Below, piece by piece: positions 4,853 through 30,186 of a stretch of 34,181 bases of DNA. The notes beneath the pieces are model-generated. The model saw nothing but the letters and a program-made list of their open reading frames with translations. It was not told the DNA's origin and did not search any database. Numbering within the stretch: the stretch's first letter is position 1; each line of letters opens with the position of its first letter. The position numbers and the translations under genes were made by a program. The DNA is from Bacteroidota bacterium (lineage in GTDB: Bacteria > Bacteroidota > Bacteroidia > Chitinophagales > Saprospiraceae): assembly GCA_011321935.1 (NCBI GenBank), contig DROJ01000335.1, positions 1 to 34,181 of the forward strand, in the 5' to 3' direction.

Positions 4853-4860
4853 TATCGTTG
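4853..4860 (+). promoter_or_regulatory. Possible -7 promoter element of the rsmB-like gene
   Basis: TATCGTTG differs by one base from the Bacteroidota -7 consensus TAnnTTTG and lies 15 nt before the chosen ATG. No clear -33 box was seen at the expected spacing. Confidence 0.35.
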
Positions 4861-4875
4861 CGAAAATACGATAAA

Positions 4876-6141
4876 ATGCAAAAACCTATCAAACTCCACC
4901 GCCCGCTCGTCAACGGCGTTGTCTCCGCCATCCGGCAAACCTGCCTGTCCGGCAGGCAGGTATTCGGAAAGGGAAAATATGCCGACAAGGTCGTTCCAAA
5001 ACTCCTCCAGGCCAACAAAAAATGGGGCAGCCGCGACCGTTCATTTGTTGCCGAAAATGTTTATGAAATGGTGCGCTGGTGGAGGCTGCTTTCAGCGCTC
5101 AGTCGGCAGTCGGCAGTCGGCAGTCCCACCGTAGATAGTTCTTTAAAAGATGAAGAAATAATTGAGATGCTGGGGGTGAATTTGATTTTGAAAGGTTTTG
5201 AACTGCCGGAATGGGAGGAGTTTGCGGGGCTTGATGCGGCTACCGTTTTGGAAAAGAAAAAAGAATTGGAAAGCAACAGGAAGGTCATACAGTCCATCCC
5301 CGATTGGCTGGATGAAATGGGCGCTGCGGAACTGGGCGACAGGTGGGACGAGGAAATAGCCGCCCTCAACAAACCGGCCCCTTTGGCCTTGCGGGTCAAT
5401 ACGTTGCGGACGAGCAAAAAATGGCTCGTCGAAAAACTGGCCGAAAAAAACAACTGGCGGGCAACGGGCAGTTCGCTCTCCCGCACGGCGCTCGTTTTAC
5501 AAAAAAGAAGGAACGTCACGTCCAGTTATTTTTATAAAAAAGGCCATTTTGAAGTGCAGGATGTCGGCTCGCAATGTATCGCCCCCTTCCTGCAAGTGAA
5601 GCCGGGAATGGCCGTGATAGATGCCTGCGCCGGGGCGGGCGGCAAGTCTTTGCACCTCGCCGTTTTAATGAAAAACACCGGACAGATACTCGCCCTCGAT
5701 ACCGAACCTCATAAACTGGTCGAACTGCAAAAACGGATCGTACGCAACCGCACAAAAATCATCCAAACCCAACTGGTAGCCCCGAACAGGCACATGAACA
5801 TGTTCACCAATTCGGCTGATCGGCTGCTCCTCGACGTGCCCTGCTCTGGCCTCGGCAGGCTGCGCCGAAGCCCGGACACCAAGTGGAAACTCACGCCGGC
5901 ATTTATCGAAAAAGTAAAAATAAAACAGGCGGAAATCTTCCAGGAATACAGCGGCATGTTGAAAGCTGGCGGCAAACTGGTTTACGCCACCTGCAGTATT
6001 TTGCCTTCGGAAAATGAAAAACAGGTGGAACGTTTTTTGGCAAACAACAAAAATTTCAAACTGGAAGATGAGCGGTTTATTTCTCCGGCAAAGGATGGGT
6101 TCGACGGGTATTATATGGCGAGGATCGGGCGTTTTAAATGA
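4876..6141 (+). CDS. RsmB/RsmF-family 16S rRNA (cytosine-C5) methyltransferase
   Basis: SAM-dependent RNA m5C methyltransferase acting on rRNA in the cytoplasm. From the ATG at 4876 the protein has 421 residues; a TTG six codons upstream is less likely. The SAM motif is DACAGAGGKS (249-258), motif IV is DVPCSGLG (C323), and the motif VI Cys in YATCSILPSEN (C373) is the catalytic nucleophile in this family. The N-terminal part, with YADKVV and GSRDRSFVAENVYEMVRWWR, is typical of the Bacteroidota form. Two features are odd. Residues 22-28 (TCLSGRQ) are exactly encoded by an intergenic-type palindrome, and residues about 75-88 include a tandem heptamer. Both keep the frame, so the enzyme may still be active. 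Confidence 0.92.
   Translation: MQKPIKLHRPLVNGVVSAIRQTCLSGRQVFGKGKYADKVVPKLLQANKKWGSRDRSFVAENVYEMVRWWRLLSALSRQSAVGSPTVDSSLKDEEIIEMLGVNLILKGFELPEWEEFAGLDAATVLEKKKELESNRKVIQSIPDWLDEMGAAELGDRWDEEIAALNKPAPLALRVNTLRTSKKWLVEKLAEKNNWRATGSSLSRTALVLQKRRNVTSSYFYKKGHFEVQDVGSQCIAPFLQVKPGMAVIDACAGAGGKSLHLAVLMKNTGQILALDTEPHKLVELQKRIVRNRTKIIQTQLVAPNRHMNMFTNSADRLLLDVPCSGLGRLRRSPDTKWKLTPAFIEKVKIKQAEIFQEYSGMLKAGGKLVYATCSILPSENEKQVERFLANNKNFKLEDERFISPAKDGFDGYYMARIGRFK
4939..4961. repeat. Palindromic mini-element inside the rsmB-like gene
   Basis: Arms ACCTGCCTG and CAGGCAGGT enclose TCCGG. The same CCTGCCTG/CAGGCAGG core occurs between genes near 32157-32174 and, degenerated, near 19058-19092. Here it adds seven codons in frame. 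Confidence 0.75.
5100..5125. repeat. Tandem heptamer CAGTCGG, about 3.7 copies, in coding DNA
   Basis: The heptamer is repeated within the rsmB-like coding sequence and encodes part of the SRQSAVGSP stretch. A gain or loss of one unit changes length by 7 nt and would shift the frame. The stretch lies in a linker before the catalytic domain. Confidence 0.85.
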
Positions 6142-9033: not shown

Positions 9034-9303
9034 GTGGCCGACTCTTCGTTTCCGCTAAACCAGCCCGCAAAGGCATCATCTCATGGCCCCGGGCTTTACC
9101 TTTATATATACCACGTCCGGTAAATCAGGATTCCTTTACCATTTGCCGATAGGCGAAAACAAAAAGCGGCAATGTGCTGATAACATGGCTGCCCGGCTCT
9201 TTAAAATATTCAATTTCAAGAGCCGTCCCGCCTAGCCGGCAAATGGGAATGGAGCATTGAACCGGCAGCACCGGTAAATACCAAAAGAAGGATTGGGCAT
9301 GAA

Positions 9304-9407
9304 TATACCGCACCATTTTAGGTTTTGTGCATTTGCCCTCGCCAGCCCCCAGCCCCAGAAGGGGAGAACCAGCCCTCAATGCACAAAACCTAAAATGGTG
9401 CGGTATA
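9304..9407. repeat. Long hairpin repeat, copy 1 (30-bp arms)
   Basis: Perfect 30-bp arms (9304-9333 and 9378-9407) run from TATACCGCACCATT to GTTTTGTGCATT. The loop is CT-rich with CCAGCCCC and GGGGAG stretches. The same structure with substituted but still paired outer arms is at 24217-24320. Confidence 0.9.
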
Positions 9408-9473
9408 AACAACCCTTCCTCTATCAATTTTCCACAATCGTCCAAGCAGGCATGGAGGTAAAGGGGAAAACCT

Positions 9474-12263: not shown

Positions 12264-12299
12264 TTCTAAAATTCATGATAAGCGACCGAATCTGTCAAG

Positions 12300-12472
12300 C
12301 CGTCTCCGTGCCCTTCCGAAAGGGGGGGAATTAATTCCCCCCTTTTCGGAAGGGCACGGAGACGGGGTCAAACATACCGTACTTTTTCTCTTTAAATGCG
12401 GATGACAGGTTAAAAAAAACTACTGATTGTCAGGGGGGGAATTAATTCCCCCCCTTTCGGAAGGGCACGGAG
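12300..12472. repeat. Nested palindrome and adjacent half copy
   Basis: At 12300-12365 arms GTGCCCTTCCGAAAGG... enclose a central GGGGGGAATTAATTCCCCCC. A second copy at 12433-12472 keeps the centre and only the right arm (TTTCGGAAGGGCACGG), ending two bases before the stop codon of the TIR gene. It may act as a terminator for the TIR gene. Confidence 0.8.
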
Positions 12473-18104: not shown

Positions 18105-18773
18105 TCACTCCAAGCCCTCGGCAAACTCCAGCACTTTCGCCACGCCTTCCGCCGAATCGATCTTTATTTTATTTTTTTTCAAAAAAGTTTCGATTTCTTT
18201 TTTATGCCCCAAATATTGAACAATGTTTTTCTTTTTTAATTTAAAAATACTCAGCTCCCCGTCTTCCAATAAAAAATAACGGGCCTTTGGGGCGAAGCGT
18301 TTGACGTGCAAGGTCTTGCCCGGTGTTTCCGTTTTGTATTCAGATATAGTCACCAAAAAATCATTGAACACTTTTCTTTTTTCACCATCATATATGAGTT
18401 GCACAAAACGGCCATCGAATTGGCCGATCTGGGTAGTCACAAAAACCGTTTTGGTCGTGTCGCCGTTTTTGCCGGCCAAGGTTACTTCCACCATATCATA
18501 GGCACCTTCTTGCAGTTCGATATATTCGTCCCTTCTCCTTACCTCTATATTGTGGGTATATCCGTTGAGGTTCAGTTTCACTTTATCATAAACCTCCCCT
18601 CCTATACCATGAATGGTACCTTCGACAAAATCTTTAAAAAAAAACGGGCTTCCTTTTATGTCCGAATACCGGTTTTCATCCCATTTCAGTGGGTTGTTAA
18701 AAAGGGTGAACTTTTGGGCGAACAGAGAAAACCCGATCAGTAAAAAACTGGTTACAAGCGTACATTTTTTCAT
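18105..18773 (-). CDS. Small secreted protein of unknown function
   Basis: From the ATG at 18773 the protein has 222 residues; eight more upstream residues are possible but would spoil the signal peptide. The signal peptide is MKKCTLVTSFLLIGFSLFAQ. The mature part starts with KGSPFFFKDFVEGTI and a beta-rich region (KVKLNLNGYTHNIEVR), like the SP(Y/F)(L/F) DxFxxG proteins common in Bacteroidota, and ends in a Lys-rich helical segment (FKLKKKNIVQYLGHKKEIETF). No catalytic motif or sorting domain is present, so it is probably periplasmic. The function is unknown. It converges on the T9SS protein gene. Confidence 0.78.
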   Translation of the reverse strand: MKKCTLVTSFLLIGFSLFAQKFTLFNNPLKWDENRYSDIKGSPFFFKDFVEGTIHGIGGEVYDKVKLNLNGYTHNIEVRRRDEYIELQEGAYDMVEVTLAGKNGDTTKTVFVTTQIGQFDGRFVQLIYDGEKRKVFNDFLVTISEYKTETPGKTLHVKRFAPKARYFLLEDGELSIFKLKKKNIVQYLGHKKEIETFLKKNKIKIDSAEGVAKVLEFAEGLE

Positions 18774-18819
18774 GTCTTTTATTTTTTTTGTGAGCAACTA
18801 TTTAGTGAAGTGATTAGTG

Positions 18820-19289
18820 ATTAGTTGATTAGTGATAAGTGATTAGTCCGCCAAATCCCTGATAATGCAACATTTAACCAAAAACTAAATGGTTAGCTAA
18901 TTACGATTTGTACCATTAGCAAGGTCAAATAAACAGATAGAAACAGAAAAAAACAAGTGCGGCATTTGGTAGTGGTAAAAAGTACGTGATGAATAAATTT
19001 TCAGGTAACTGTTTAGCCCCACAGAAAACCTGTTGAATTCACTAACCCCCGACTTCCCGCCTACCGGTACGTCCGCATGGACAGGCAGGCAGTCGGGGGT
19101 TAGTGAATTTTACAAGTTAACCGAGGGTGGTCATCACGTACTTTTTACCACTACCCATCATTTTTATAAGCAAATGTCGTAGTGGTTCGATTCGTAATTA
19201 GCGAACTATTTATTTTTTGGTTAAATGTTATATTATCAGGGATTTGGCGGACTAATCACTAATCAACTAATCACTAATCACTAATCACT
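18820..19289. repeat. Giant nested palindrome, about 470 bp, at least five layers
   Basis: From outside to inside: TGATTAG heptamer arrays plus GTCCGCCAAATCCCTGATAA and its complement; a TTAGCTAATTACGA-type pair; GTGGTAAAAAGTACGTGATG with its complement; a GGTAACT/AGTTAACC pair; AATTCACTAACCCCCGACT with its complement; and a degenerate CCTACCGG/GGCAGG core. Loops between layers are unpaired. It fills the gap between two divergently facing flanks and has no coding potential. Confidence 0.88.
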
Positions 19290-19310
19290 GCAGTAGCCCC
19301 CTCGCTGTAC

Positions 19311-20345
19311 TCAGCCCCTCCCGAACAACTTCTCCCTTTCCAGCCACATCACCGTAATCCCGTCGTTGGCCTTAAAAATATTGTCGAGGCTGTTGGTAAG
19401 CGGCAGCGACCATTTTTGCAGCAGCATGGCCAGTTTGGAATCGGGCAGGTCGGTGCTTTGGGTGGGCGGTTTCATCACCGAAGCGGGGAAGCCCATCAGG
19501 TAGAGCAGCGGGCTGAACAACCAGCGCAGCCAATGCCAGGGGTTGGCCGTGCCGGTAAAAATATAACGGCTGGCATTGACGTGCAGGTAGTCCGTTTTAC
19601 GGAGGAAAAAACGCCCGCTAGGGCTGTGCTTAAAAGCGTTTTTATAATCCTCCACCCTGCGGCGGGTGATGCTTTCGTGCTGGTATTTTTTGGTGGCCGT
19701 CTCTTCTACCAGGATGACCCATTGGCGGGACACCCTTGCCGCCTCGTCCACCACCCGTTTCATTTGGCGGTCGTCGGCAATGTGCTGCAGCTCGAACATC
19801 ACGAACACCACATCGAAGGATTTGTCGGGAAAGGGCAGGTTGCGGGCATCGGCCACAGAGAGGTCGGCATTGATGCCTTTGGTGTATTCTTTGGCCAGGG
19901 CGATGGACTCCTCTGAGCTGTCCACACCGTAAATTTCCTTTGGGCCGTACTTGCTCATTTCGAGCAGCAGGTCGCCGATGCCGCAGCCGATTTCCAGCAC
20001 CGAGCGGTTGCCGACGTACCTCCCGAAATTCAACAGTTGGATGAGCTTGCGGCGGCGGTAGCCATCAAAAGGGGTTTTGGGCAAAGGAAGTTGCACCGCA
20101 GCTTTTGGGGCAGAGGCGGGCAACAGTTTGTCCTTCCGCTGCTGCGCCTGGGCTATCAGGGCGGGGAGTTTGAAATCAGGGAACTTGTCGCGGAAGAATT
20201 TTTTCAAAATAAAAAAATGTGGTTTCTGATCGCTTTGGTTTTGGTTGGACAGGGCAAATCTAAAGCATTTTGCTAATGTTGCGACGACAACGACGGGCTT
20301 GAGATGGATTGGCCGGGCATCCCTCAACCATCTCAGCCCCCTCAA
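19311..20345 (-). CDS. Class I SAM-dependent methyltransferase
   Basis: Methyltransferase of the Methyltransf_11 type. Motif I is VLEIGCGIGD (about 116-125, counted from the farthest start), the acidic residue that binds the ribose is in GVDSSEES, and the motif IV region is FDVVFVMFELQHI. The C-terminal part has a hydrophobic stretch (WLRWLFSPLLYLMGF) that may dip into the membrane, suggesting a lipid-like or membrane-bound substrate. The only farthest start is a TTG at 20345, which would leave just 24 nt to the divergent oxidoreductase gene. The true start is probably further in, somewhere before residue 60, but no ATG marks it. The substrate is unknown. Confidence 0.82.
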   Translation of the reverse strand: MRGLRWLRDARPIHLKPVVVVATLAKCFRFALSNQNQSDQKPHFFILKKFFRDKFPDFKLPALIAQAQQRKDKLLPASAPKAAVQLPLPKTPFDGYRRRKLIQLLNFGRYVGNRSVLEIGCGIGDLLLEMSKYGPKEIYGVDSSEESIALAKEYTKGINADLSVADARNLPFPDKSFDVVFVMFELQHIADDRQMKRVVDEAARVSRQWVILVEETATKKYQHESITRRRVEDYKNAFKHSPSGRFFLRKTDYLHVNASRYIFTGTANPWHWLRWLFSPLLYLMGFPASVMKPPTQSTDLPDSKLAMLLQKWSLPLTNSLDNIFKANDGITVMWLEREKLFGRG

Positions 20346-21332: not shown

Positions 21333-21524
21333 AGGTTTACCGGTGTAAAGGAAGATGGGTTCTAAAAGGTGAAAGCCCTGGCCCGAAATCCGAAGAACAT
21401 GCAGCCGTTAAACCAATAAACCTTTAGGCCAATAAACCAATAAATCAATTAACCCTTAATTATTTTGCAGCTATCAATAATTTATTACTACATTTAAACC
21501 GAGTTTTAAAAATACTCCCCCTCT

Positions 21525-22650: not shown

Positions 22651-22700
22651 TATAATGACCTAAATAGAGTCTTTAATTAAACGACAGTTGTTGTCCAACC

Positions 22701-22762
22701 ATTAAACCATTAAACCATTAAACCATTAAACCATTAAACCATTAAACCATTAAACCATTAAA
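22701..22762 (+). repeat. Octamer array (ATTAAACC), about 7.8 copies
   Basis: Perfect tandem copies end nine bases before the ATG at 22772. The array therefore replaces the normal leader and ribosome-binding region. Slippage would change the leader length in 8-nt steps. Confidence 0.95.
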
Positions 22763-22771
22763 AATCTAAAT

Positions 22772-24043
22772 ATGGAAGCATACGCACAAGTCCTTAATTA
22801 CGCCATCCCGTTTTTTGTTTCGCTCATTATCATTGAGCAGGTGGCTGCCCATTTCATGGGCAAAAAAATCAACCGGGGAGCAGATGTCATTTCCAGCCTC
22901 AGCTCGGGCAACAGCAACACCATAAAAGATGTGCTCGGCCTCAGCATTGCCATCGTGAGCTACTCATGGCTGGTGGACAAGGTGGCCGTTTTTGACATAA
23001 AAGCAACTTGGGCAGTGGCCGCTATTGCCTTCGTGGCAAAGGATTTTGCCGGCTATTGGATGCACCGCTGGGAACACGAGATCAACTTCCTCTGGAACCG
23101 GCACATCATCCACCACAGCAGCGAGGAGTACAACCTTTCGTGTGCGCTTCGGCAGAGTGTTTCGGAGGTGTTTTCCATATTTGCCCTGCTCATGCTGCCT
23201 GCGGCAATCATGGGGGTACCGGCCGAAATAATAGCCGTGGTGGCGCCCCTACATTTGTTTGCCCAATTTTGGTACCACACCCGCCTGATCGGCAAAATGG
23301 GATGGTTCGGGAAGGTCTTTGTCACCCCGTCGCACCACCGCGTCCACCATGCTATCAATTCGATATATTTGGATAAAAACTACTCGCAGGTATTTATTAT
23401 TTGGGATAAAATATTCGGCACTTTCCAACCCGAACTCGCCGAGGTACCTCCTGTATATGGTGTAAAAAAACCGGTCAGGACATGGAACCCATTATTGATC
23501 AATTTCCAACATTTTTGGTTGTTGTTCACTGATGCCTGGCATACTAAAAGCTGGAAAGACAAATTCCTTTTATGGTTCAAGCATACCGGTTACCGCCCTG
23601 CCGATGTCGCAGAAAAATATCCCGTAAAAATAATCAACGACCCATATAGCCTTGATAAATACGACCCAAAATTGTCCACTCCCCTGCTCTATTGGTCATG
23701 GTTTCAGATGGTTGCCAACTTTGCGTTCATGCTCTGGCTTTTCAATCATATTGCTGAAATAGGCATGCCGGATATGTTTTATTATGGTGCGTTTTTAATT
23801 ATCGCTATATTCAGTTATACTACTTTAATGGACAGATCAAAGTATGCATTGTTGACCGAATTTATTAAAGCTGCGCTCGGCCTCGGGTTTATTTATTGGC
23901 AGGGAAATGATTGGTTCGGCATGAACGCCGTTTGGCCGGTGGGCACTTATATTATTGTTGCTTATTTTGTTTTGTCACTGGTGGTGGTGGCCTATTTTGT
24001 CAAAACGGAATGCGGGGAGGAAAAGGAGGTTGCTTTGGCCTAG
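22772..24043 (+). CDS. Alkylglycerol monooxygenase-like / sterol desaturase-family di-iron enzyme
   Basis: A 423-residue integral membrane enzyme of the fatty-acid hydroxylase superfamily. The eight-His di-iron site is intact: HRWEH (98-102), HIIHH (111-115) and SHHRVHH (188-193). The arrangement and the long C-terminal part with several further TM segments resemble alkylglycerol monooxygenase (TMEM195), which cleaves ether lipids, more than C5-sterol desaturase. It probably oxidises a membrane lipid. About eight hydrophobic segments are visible. An octamer array lies directly before the start, and a 62-bp-arm hairpin starts right at the stop codon. It is transcribed alone. Confidence 0.9.
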   Translation: MEAYAQVLNYAIPFFVSLIIIEQVAAHFMGKKINRGADVISSLSSGNSNTIKDVLGLSIAIVSYSWLVDKVAVFDIKATWAVAAIAFVAKDFAGYWMHRWEHEINFLWNRHIIHHSSEEYNLSCALRQSVSEVFSIFALLMLPAAIMGVPAEIIAVVAPLHLFAQFWYHTRLIGKMGWFGKVFVTPSHHRVHHAINSIYLDKNYSQVFIIWDKIFGTFQPELAEVPPVYGVKKPVRTWNPLLINFQHFWLLFTDAWHTKSWKDKFLLWFKHTGYRPADVAEKYPVKIINDPYSLDKYDPKLSTPLLYWSWFQMVANFAFMLWLFNHIAEIGMPDMFYYGAFLIIAIFSYTTLMDRSKYALLTEFIKAALGLGFIYWQGNDWFGMNAVWPVGTYIIVAYFVLSLVVVAYFVKTECGEEKEVALA

Positions 24044-24185: not shown

Positions 24186-24216
24186 CATACTTCATTTAAT
24201 TACAACAATACAATGA

Positions 24217-24320
24217 TATACTGAACCATAATAGGTTTTGTGCATTTGCCCTCGCCAGCCCCCAACCCCAAAAGGGGAGAACCTGCGCTCGATGCACAAA
24301 ACCTATTATGGTTCAGTATA
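24217..24320. repeat. Long hairpin repeat, copy 2 (29-bp arms)
   Basis: Homologous to 9304-9407: the inner arm GTTTTGTGCATT and the loop with GCCAGCCCC and GGGGAGAACC are nearly identical. The outer arm is TATACTGAACCATAATAG here, where copy 1 has TATACCGCACCATTTTAG, and each change is matched on the other arm. Copy 2 shares this outer arm with the hairpin at 18008. Confidence 0.9.
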
Positions 24321-24376
24321 AACATAACCGCCATTTGCGGCAGTACCAGAAACAAATCTGTCAATAAAGATATTCT

Positions 24377-24756
24377 GGTTCTTCTCCCTTTTTAGTGGGT
24401 GCAATGCAGATGTATTGTTATTACAATTGGCGCACAAATCTCATTTAATGAAAAATTGTATCATTATAAATACCTGGGGTAAATGCACAAAATGCTCACT
24501 CGGCTCCACTGTTTTTTTGTTCCCGATTTTCGGGACAGGCTATCCGCTTTAGCGGAACTGCAACGTGATGAGGGAAGCCATGAACACCGCACACACCAGA
24601 CATCGCAGTTCCGCTAAAGCGGATAGCCTGTCCCGAAAATCGGGAACAAAAAAACAGCGGAGCCGAGTGAGCATTTTGTGCATTTACTCCGGATATTTAA
24701 AATGATACATTATAAGCCTGTTTTTAAAATTTACCCACTAAAAAGGGAGAAGAACC
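24377..24756. repeat. Giant nested palindrome, 380 bp, inner arms of 83 bp
   Basis: The outer pair is a perfect 24-bp arm (24377-24400 and 24733-24756) containing TTCTCCCTTTTTAGTGGGT. Inside lies an imperfect TGTATCATT...CCTGG pair and then 83-bp arms (24479-24561 and 24605-24687) with one mismatch and a 43-nt loop. The 83-bp arm is itself composite: GTAAATGCACAAAATGC, a TCCCGA-TTT-TCGGGA hairpin and a CCGCTTTAGCGG hairpin. No coding potential. Confidence 0.9.
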
Positions 24757-26805: not shown

Positions 26806-26932
26806 ACCGGAAGCGCTGCTTCCGGTCGCACAGACGGTCAAGCCAACTCGGAAGGGATAAAAAAAAATAGGTAACTGCTTATCCCGCCCCCCTCGAAATC
26901 CCTCCGGGATTTCGAGGGGGGTAGGTAGTTAC
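26806..26932. repeat. Two palindromes after the SulP gene
   Basis: ACCGGAAGC-GCT-GCTTCCGGT lies at 26806-26826. A nested one at 26871-26932 has outer GTAACTG/AGTTAC, then CCCCCCTCGAAATCCC with its complement around TCC. The GAAATCCC-TCC-GGGATTTC core is close to the arm palindromes at 32115-32213, and GTAACTG is close to modules at 19015 and 30066. Confidence 0.8.
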
Positions 26933-30045: not shown

Positions 30046-30065
30046 TATTTTAATTAAAACTAAAA

Positions 30066-30164
30066 GCAACTGTTCAGCACCCTCTCAAAATTATTGATTT
30101 CACTAACCCCGAGTACTCGGGGCTAGTGAAATCAGCAGTTTAATGGAGGGCGCTGAACAGTTAC
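30066..30164. repeat. Nested palindrome, GCAACTGTTCAGC outer and CACTAACCCCGA inner
   Basis: Outer arms (30066-30084, 30146-30164) have two mismatches. The inner 40-bp palindrome (30095-30134, TGATTTCACTAACCCCGAGT and complement) has one. Both layers recur, altered, inside the structure at 18820-19289 (GGTAACTGTTTAGCC outer, CACTAACCCCCGA inner), in the same order. Confidence 0.85.
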
Positions 30165-30186
30165 AACTAAAAAATAAAAAACTATA

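Follow-up and report, generated by a model that had tools for sequence, protein, structure and literature searches.

Nested palindrome in a Saprospiraceae genome as a probable stack of separate short mobile elements

The nested palindrome at about 18794-19296 is very probably a stack of separate short mobile elements, namely MITEs arranged around REP-like hairpin cores, that became nested step by step. The window, i.e., the whole stretch of DNA analysed here (34,181 nt), is the entire contig C335 of a draft genome of 6.74 Mb in 633 contigs, assigned to a Bacteroidota bacterium of the Saprospiraceae. The nested inverted structure occupies about 490 bases of intergenic DNA between two minus-strand reading frames, 3′ of a methyltransferase gene (19311-20345) and 5′ of an ORF without Pfam hit (18105-18797). 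The original prediction described one palindrome of five or more layers at 18820-19289. Its layers are indeed nested, but the outermost symmetry results from two insertions, and a single hairpin is formed by the inner layers alone; the limits of the structure are about 18794-19296.

Three pairs of inverted arms lie within one another: outer arms of 116 nt (18803-18918/19180-19295, 84% complementary), middle arms of 25 nt (18968-18992/19131-19155, 100% complementary) and inner arms of 45 nt (19018-19062/19083-19127, 80% complementary). The proposed symmetric stacking holds for these pairs and breaks down at AACTGTTTAGC (19007-19017), which is without a matching partner on the right. The components of the structure, and two C-family elements found elsewhere in the window, are as follows.

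18794-18805, plus strand: C-type end GCAACTATTTAG, entered by the left X; removing X and one TTAG gives GCAACTATTTAGCAAGG
18802-18805 and 18916-18919 (right copy), no strand: TTAG, target duplication of the left X (CTAA/CTAA on the minus strand)
18806-18915, minus strand: element X, subfamily XA, from sequence comparison and flanking duplication
18920-18967, no strand: spacer between the left X and B, from direct reading
18968-19155, plus strand: element B, MITE-like, with 25-bp perfect terminal inverted repeats GGTAGTGGTAAAAAGTACGTGATGA, from its inverted-repeat arms
19005-19017, plus strand: C-end-like motif GTAACTGTTTAGC within B, on the left side only, from direct reading
19038-19107, no strand: core hairpin K, TTCACTAACCCC ... 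GGGGTTAGTGAA, from module strings
19048-19097, no strand: mini-hairpin CCCGACTT/CAGTCGGG, its dyad opened by a 34-nt insert (50-nt form)
19056-19089, no strand: T, a 20-bp palindrome (CCCGCCTACCGG/CAGGCAGG) opened by 14 nt
19068-19081, no strand: innermost 14-nt piece TACGTCCGCATGGA, within the small hairpin GTCC-GCAT-GGAC
19183-19292, plus strand: element X, subfamily XB, with the GTAG duplication at 19179-19182 and 19293-19296
26871-26932, plus strand: 62-bp C-family element, too short for the K core, with the exact 8-bp duplication AAAAATAG
30066-30164, plus strand: C-family element, K core with tip CCCGAGTACTCGGG, ends GCAACTGTTCAGC/GCTGAACAGTTAC (GTAACT type)

Folded as single-stranded DNA, 18803-19295 reaches -151.7 kcal/mol, far below all 100 dinucleotide shuffles (-45.4 +/- 4.6 kcal/mol; 0/100 as good). 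A very stable intergenic hairpin between the methyltransferase gene and ORF 18105-18797 could be read as a functional structured RNA or a two-way terminator under selection, and the Rfam mir-4436 model matches 19036-19109 with E-values of 2.9e-8 and 1e-6. However, the two matches, at 44.7 and 39.1 bits, stay below the gathering score of 74 and represent both strands of a near-perfect hairpin; the Rfam search returned no family at gathering score, and the mir-4436 match is probably just a hairpin resemblance. The sequence is, moreover, composed of dispersed repeats, and we consider a selected RNA very unlikely. The structure would be explicable without any cellular function.

Palindromes are common in this genome: in a sample of 128 kb, inverted repeats with arms no shorter than 18 nt formed 99 pairs on 14 of 20 contigs (picked by contig number, up to the first 20 kb of each, overlapping pairs counted separately), compared with 0 pairs in one mononucleotide shuffle. 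One inverted repeat of the window, at 24457-24709, has arms of 110 nt that are 94% complementary with 33 nt between them, and is a cleaner palindrome than 18794-19296.

The outer arms, taken for unique sequence in the original prediction, are copies of element X, the left end of which occurs at no fewer than 195 places in this genome (at least 195, with at most 3 mismatches), whereas the same pattern read backwards occurs at 1. X is generally about 103 bp long, both window copies being 110 bp, starts with TGGTAC and ends with CACTGCA; two subfamilies, XA (TGGTACAAATCG) and XB (TGGTTCGATTCG), can be told apart. The previously described heptamer arrays are present, but they do not constitute a layer of their own: the array (GTGATTA) is the sub-terminal part of X. 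Heptamers of this kind also gave matches in further genomes at genus, family and order level. The ends of X (TGGTTCGATTCGTAATTAG/TGCAGTGATTCGTAATTAG), compared by eye, resemble each other imperfectly: 15/19 positions agree in XB and fewer in XA.

X is flanked by a duplication of constant length, 4-bp NTAN, as in MITEs. The duplication is exact in 41 of 54 candidate copies (those without a recognised right end excluded; one looks like a false hit), whereas 10,000 re-pairings of the flanks gave 8.4 on average and never more than 18; it is also exact in 51 of 66 copies of an enlarged, overlapping set from which copies lacking either flank were left out. At 16 X sites among the matches listed for the left end, 19 left ends were found, ten of them belonging to full-length elements with exact duplications; seven of the other nine have no X right end in the searched range (some are cut by contig ends), and two fall into neither group. 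The X sites that were read showed no autonomous X; the transposase families covered by searches were PF12762, PF03050 and PF01797.

The two window copies lie in opposite orientation and each has its own duplication, TTAG on the left and GTAG on the right. As these duplications differ, the outer symmetry is that of two X insertions. The same difference bears on a rival reading, in which the whole nested palindrome is one composite mobile unit that moves as a single fixed repeat. Inverted XA-XB pairs do recur, at L004/L060 and L087, and back to back at L090 and L091, as such a unit would predict; however, the sequence between the two X copies varies among L004, L087, L090 and L091, and the full 493 bp has a whole-length match in this genome only at its own place, with partial matches elsewhere (40 of 440 candidates scored). 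With differing X duplications and many partial forms, one fixed composite unit was rejected and seems to us barely credible. The finding that the original prediction named as contrary to it, a fixed whole unit without intermediates, was not encountered; intermediates exist. Across 60 genomes of the genus, family and order, the 493-bp query was matched in 13 (its own included), mostly at heptamer ends, and in a plasmid collection a single record matched, its best place covering query positions 1-45 only. The neighbouring ORF 18105-18797 was not found at any of 15 other loci matching the methyltransferase (three of them weak paralogues; flanks of up to 1.5 kb), and a search for an orthologous empty site in 13 congeneric genomes did not find this gene.

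Between the two X copies lies element B, the 25-bp end of which has 14 matches in this genome, while a search of 13 congeneric genomes gave 0. B combines terminal inverted repeats with target duplications, as MITEs do. Its ends are of the GGTAGTGG type and are flanked by 8-9-bp duplications; besides the window copy, four complete copies were found, and all four have exact 8- or 9-bp duplications (L002, GTCAAAAT; L003, TCATTTAT; L108, GAAAATCT; L106, the 9-mer TGACAAATA). The window copy is flanked by CGGCATTT and CATCATTT, which agree at 6/8 positions and are weak evidence on their own. An IS1595 origin may be considered for B and an IS5-type one for X. The IS1595 origin of B was dropped because a profile search of this genome for the corresponding transposase domain (PF12762) gave 0 matches.

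The third family, C, comprises elements of 61-353 bp with varied palindromic interiors, including the K core common to B. Among candidate C end pairs in the fetched loci, 23 of 72 have an exact 8-bp duplication and 8 more agree at 7/8 positions, the 72 being all combinations of left and right ends, many of which are not true elements. The element at 30066-30164 is bounded by the exact 8-bp duplication AACTAAAA (30058-30065 and 30165-30172). It had been singled out as carrying inner modules of the palindrome in the same order, and this stands for CACTAACCCC and AACTGTTYAGC, but CCTACCGG/GGCAGG is absent and the tip is CCCGAGTACTCGGG. C elements also enter one another: at L170, a copy at 349-701 (GTTAGGAG) contains another at 406-609 (TAAAATTT), both with exact 8-bp duplications.

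GTAA ends together with 8-bp duplications are usual for IS66. At L235 of this genome, positions 595-2314 hold an intact IS66-like element, with a PF03050 protein (1.5e-11), inverted ends GTAAGTACTCAATAG and the exact 8-bp duplication GAATTATG. Like IS66-family insertion sequences, C has an 8-bp target duplication, and the ends of the L235 element start with GTAA as those of C do; however, C is too short for a transposase gene, has palindromic interiors, and agrees with the intact element in the outer end bases only, the inner end sequences being different. A congener has an IS66-like element at L238 that is similar but not identical to that of L235 (ends ATAAATATTTAGG/CCTAAGTAGTTAC; TTTTTAAT present twice). 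No bounded element with a duplication was found around the second PF03050 copy of this genome (L236) or at L239 in G007. Judging from the outer ends and duplication length, C is likely to be mobilised by an IS66-type transposase.

The order in which layers were added can be read where X lies in a C-type end, as at seven loci (the window, L071, L087 (also L034), L162, L175, L177 and L301). When X and one 4-mer are removed, the C-type elements prove to be bounded by exact 8-bp repeats at 4/7 loci (L071, GATAATTT; L087, AATTGTTT; L162, AGAAATAA; L177, GTTTAGAA); because removal of X restores the duplication, C came first and X later at these four. X has been inserted in both C arms at L087, and a symmetric outer layer can therefore arise from two later insertions. 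L301 seems to be a case like L087: CTAA borders a slightly shortened right X at either end, the left X being cut by the edge of the stretch, and at L175 no partner C end with a duplication was seen. The window is not the cleanest example of this order, as its C partner end is missing: no right partner was found for the C-type end at 18794-18805.

The concentration of X in such places raises the possibility that palindromic elements act as landing pads, with X favouring C and B ends and tips collecting smaller hairpins, so that nests would be self-reinforcing rather than products of chance and survival. X lies in C ends at 7 of 66 sites, where 0.69 would be expected for random sites with the same 4-mers, but these seven are a biased set: L162, L175 and L177 were fetched via the nest motif, one is the window, and the remaining three, L071 and the two arms of L087 (scored under L034), were retrieved with a query that contains the nest. 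X lies in B-type ends at 3 of 66 sites, with 0.70 expected by the same measure. Among the 16 sites picked by the X end only, one (L301, missed by the automatic scoring) lies in C arms. We regard the landing-pad idea as possible but doubtful.

The inner layers form a series of hairpins. The core hairpin of B, CACTAACCCC...GGGGTTAGTG, holds the mini-hairpin, which holds the 20-bp palindrome T, which in turn is opened by 14 nt; this 14-nt piece, TACGTCCGCATGGA, also follows CCGG at L087 and L175. The tip of K varies: it may be CCCGAGTACTCGGG, or the 16-nt CCCGACTTCAGTCGGG, or the latter with an insert of 20 nt (36 nt in all) or of 34 nt (50 nt in all, the window form). A search of this genome with the mini-hairpin pattern CCCGACTTN{1,31}AGTCGGG returned two lengths only within its range of 16-46 nt, namely 16 nt (57 sites) and 36 nt (17 sites); the pattern misses longer forms, such as the window's own 50 nt, and the g14 tip. 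One perfectly palindromic site is entered twice, once for each strand. The 20-nt insert T is also found on its own, its core GCCTACCGGYAGGC having 62 strand-matches in this genome and 78 in the relative G010 (many at contig ends) and being present in 7 of 14 genomes. A T-like palindrome of 21 nt, CCTGCCTGTCCGGCAGGCAGG, lies at 4940-4960 of the window within ORF 4858-6141, the frame of which is intact.

The K core hairpin is common to B and C, bare in some cases and with further layers in others. The sites with fewer layers anticipated by the original prediction were found within this genome in many module combinations (K-g14-K alone, C-K-g14-K-C, C-K-m16-K-C, C-K-M36-K-C, C-K-m16-D-D-m16-K-C and B-K-M36-K-B); in the longer forms, a hairpin D lies between two tips. 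Its proposal that the nesting is inherited or repeated and not random is partly supported by these partial-layer combinations, though not as one five-layer palindrome.

The nesting of T could mean that hairpin tips are a preferred target and that small palindromes insert at the dyad of other palindromes. T lies exactly at the dyad of CCCGACTT/CAGTCGGG and of GGGTTT/TAACCC, and near the centre of CCCCGGATG/AAATCCGGGG. However, when 46 T contexts (T copies with enough flank in the fetched loci) were merged by similarity into 14 groups, a junction stem score of at least 6 was reached by only two groups, with a shifted control rate of 0.02; the largest group merges two host hairpins, so three may be the fairer count, and the others have no clear stem. 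Tip-targeted insertion, striking as it is in amplified copies, was therefore set aside as a general explanation, which we judge unlikely.

Another rival has the palindrome growing by template switching during replication, one arm with its inserts being copied onto the other (quasipalindrome correction). The first 40 nt are identical in both arms at L029, L159 and L250; the mini-hairpins of a pair, found with one pattern, have the same form in 20/21 cases and are inverted in 21/21; and over 33 C elements similarity is 0.81 between the two arms of one element and 0.63 between arms of different copies (0/10,000 re-pairings as high), but this comparison mixes subfamilies with different interiors. 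In the 20 elements with a K core, the values are only 0.735 and 0.71 (73/2000 re-pairings as high), and common descent may also explain the agreement within pairs. Tips differ, moreover, at L015, L017, L019, L030, L108, L165 and L174 (g14 with m16), L166 (m16 with M36) and L033 (m16 with M50), while the window arms belong to different X subfamilies with different duplications. Homogenisation of arms is thus at best weak, and growth by arm copying appears quite unlikely.

An assembly of 633 contigs invites the suspicion of misassembled repeats, the more so as at least L117, L121 and L127 start or stop inside palindromes. However, the outer arms are imperfect (only 84% complementary), each layer turns up again within other contigs in different arrangements and usually with its own target duplication, and the distinct target duplications agree with the layering; for these reasons we consider misassembly very unlikely.

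For the stack of separate elements, we propose the following course of events. C would be mobilised in trans by an IS66-family DDE transposase, and X and B by other DDE transposases. T and, by analogy, the mini-hairpins may represent REP-like units that spread through Y1/HUH single-strand transposition or are copied along with their carrier. At other loci, X did enter one or both arms of older C elements, producing a symmetric nest from independent events. Insertions that preserve a hairpin would survive better: those at the tip or in the ends would leave the palindrome foldable and mobile, and thus able to survive and be amplified, whereas insertions elsewhere would destroy it.

The REP-like component can be compared with the Y1 transposase genes. 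Y1_Tnp (PF01797) occurs at four places in this genome (L288, L289, L290 and L291), each of them flanked on either side by palindromic repeats, the kind of which differs from place to place. At L289, the gene is flanked by E hairpins, of which the upstream one contains T and the downstream one has a T-like tip; the arrangement typical of REPs, the same hairpins flanking a Y1 RAYT-type gene, was thus found for T and the E hairpin, at this one locus. Among eight Y1 loci of relatives, the same palindrome stands on both sides only at L284. Neither K nor the mini-hairpin was observed next to the four Y1 genes of this genome, and no constant GTAG or CGTC tag was recognised by eye at the hairpin foot in the contexts of T, K or the mini-hairpin. 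K and the mini-hairpin are not classed as REPs because of this absence from Y1 genes and of a constant tag. In the window, GGGGGGAATTAATTCCCCCC hairpins at 12285-12472 are like the palindromes beside the Y1 transposase gene of L290.

Several known systems resemble parts of this structure. Described REP/RAYT systems and REP dimers likewise comprise small dispersed palindromes and Y1 genes flanked by palindromes (PMC3733652), and the REPtron idea of the same source is matched by L289, where E hairpins, elsewhere carriers of T, flank a Y1 gene. REP elements or dimers within other palindromes are reported there for A. variabilis, T. roseum and H. neapolitanus; in contrast to the present structure, the insertions reported for these species have two layers, and T, K and the mini-hairpins here show no constant tag by eye. 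MITEs, as described in the accessible text of PMC10969869, are alike in being short and non-coding, with terminal inverted repeats, target duplications and many copies. The same text mentions IS1111 integrated in QMITE2 copies, i.e., one element inside another; it does not contain the word "nested", whereas here at least three families plus core hairpins lie several layers deep. The Rickettsia palindromic elements described in it occur in-frame inside genes, as does the T-like palindrome at 4940-4960, but are about 150 bp long compared with about 20 bp here, the comparison being by description only (PMC10969869).

Nesting of palindromic elements is thus already known; new here are the depth and the mix of families. 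Our literature search, with subscription papers mostly outside its coverage, found no title or abstract on multi-layer nested palindromes like these. Many stages of nest building stand side by side in this genome, and target duplications make the order of insertion readable, so the origin of complex intergenic palindromes becomes directly testable rather than a matter of guesswork. For annotators, this means that such loci can be mobile-element debris, to be considered before a regulatory RNA. It also raises the question of how this bacterium copes with palindromes hundreds of bases long and manages to replicate them.

Other repeats of the window include a 109-bp hairpin repeat in two copies (88%; 9303-9411 and 24216-24324) with perfect arms of 29-30 nt, one arm of which is TATACTGAACCATAATAGGTTTTGTGCAT; similar sequence occurs at L016, L288 and L292. 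A perfect tandem array of AACCATTA with 8.2 copies lies at 22697-22762, just upstream of an ORF starting at 22772, and a degenerate relative of this array is found at 21409-21454.
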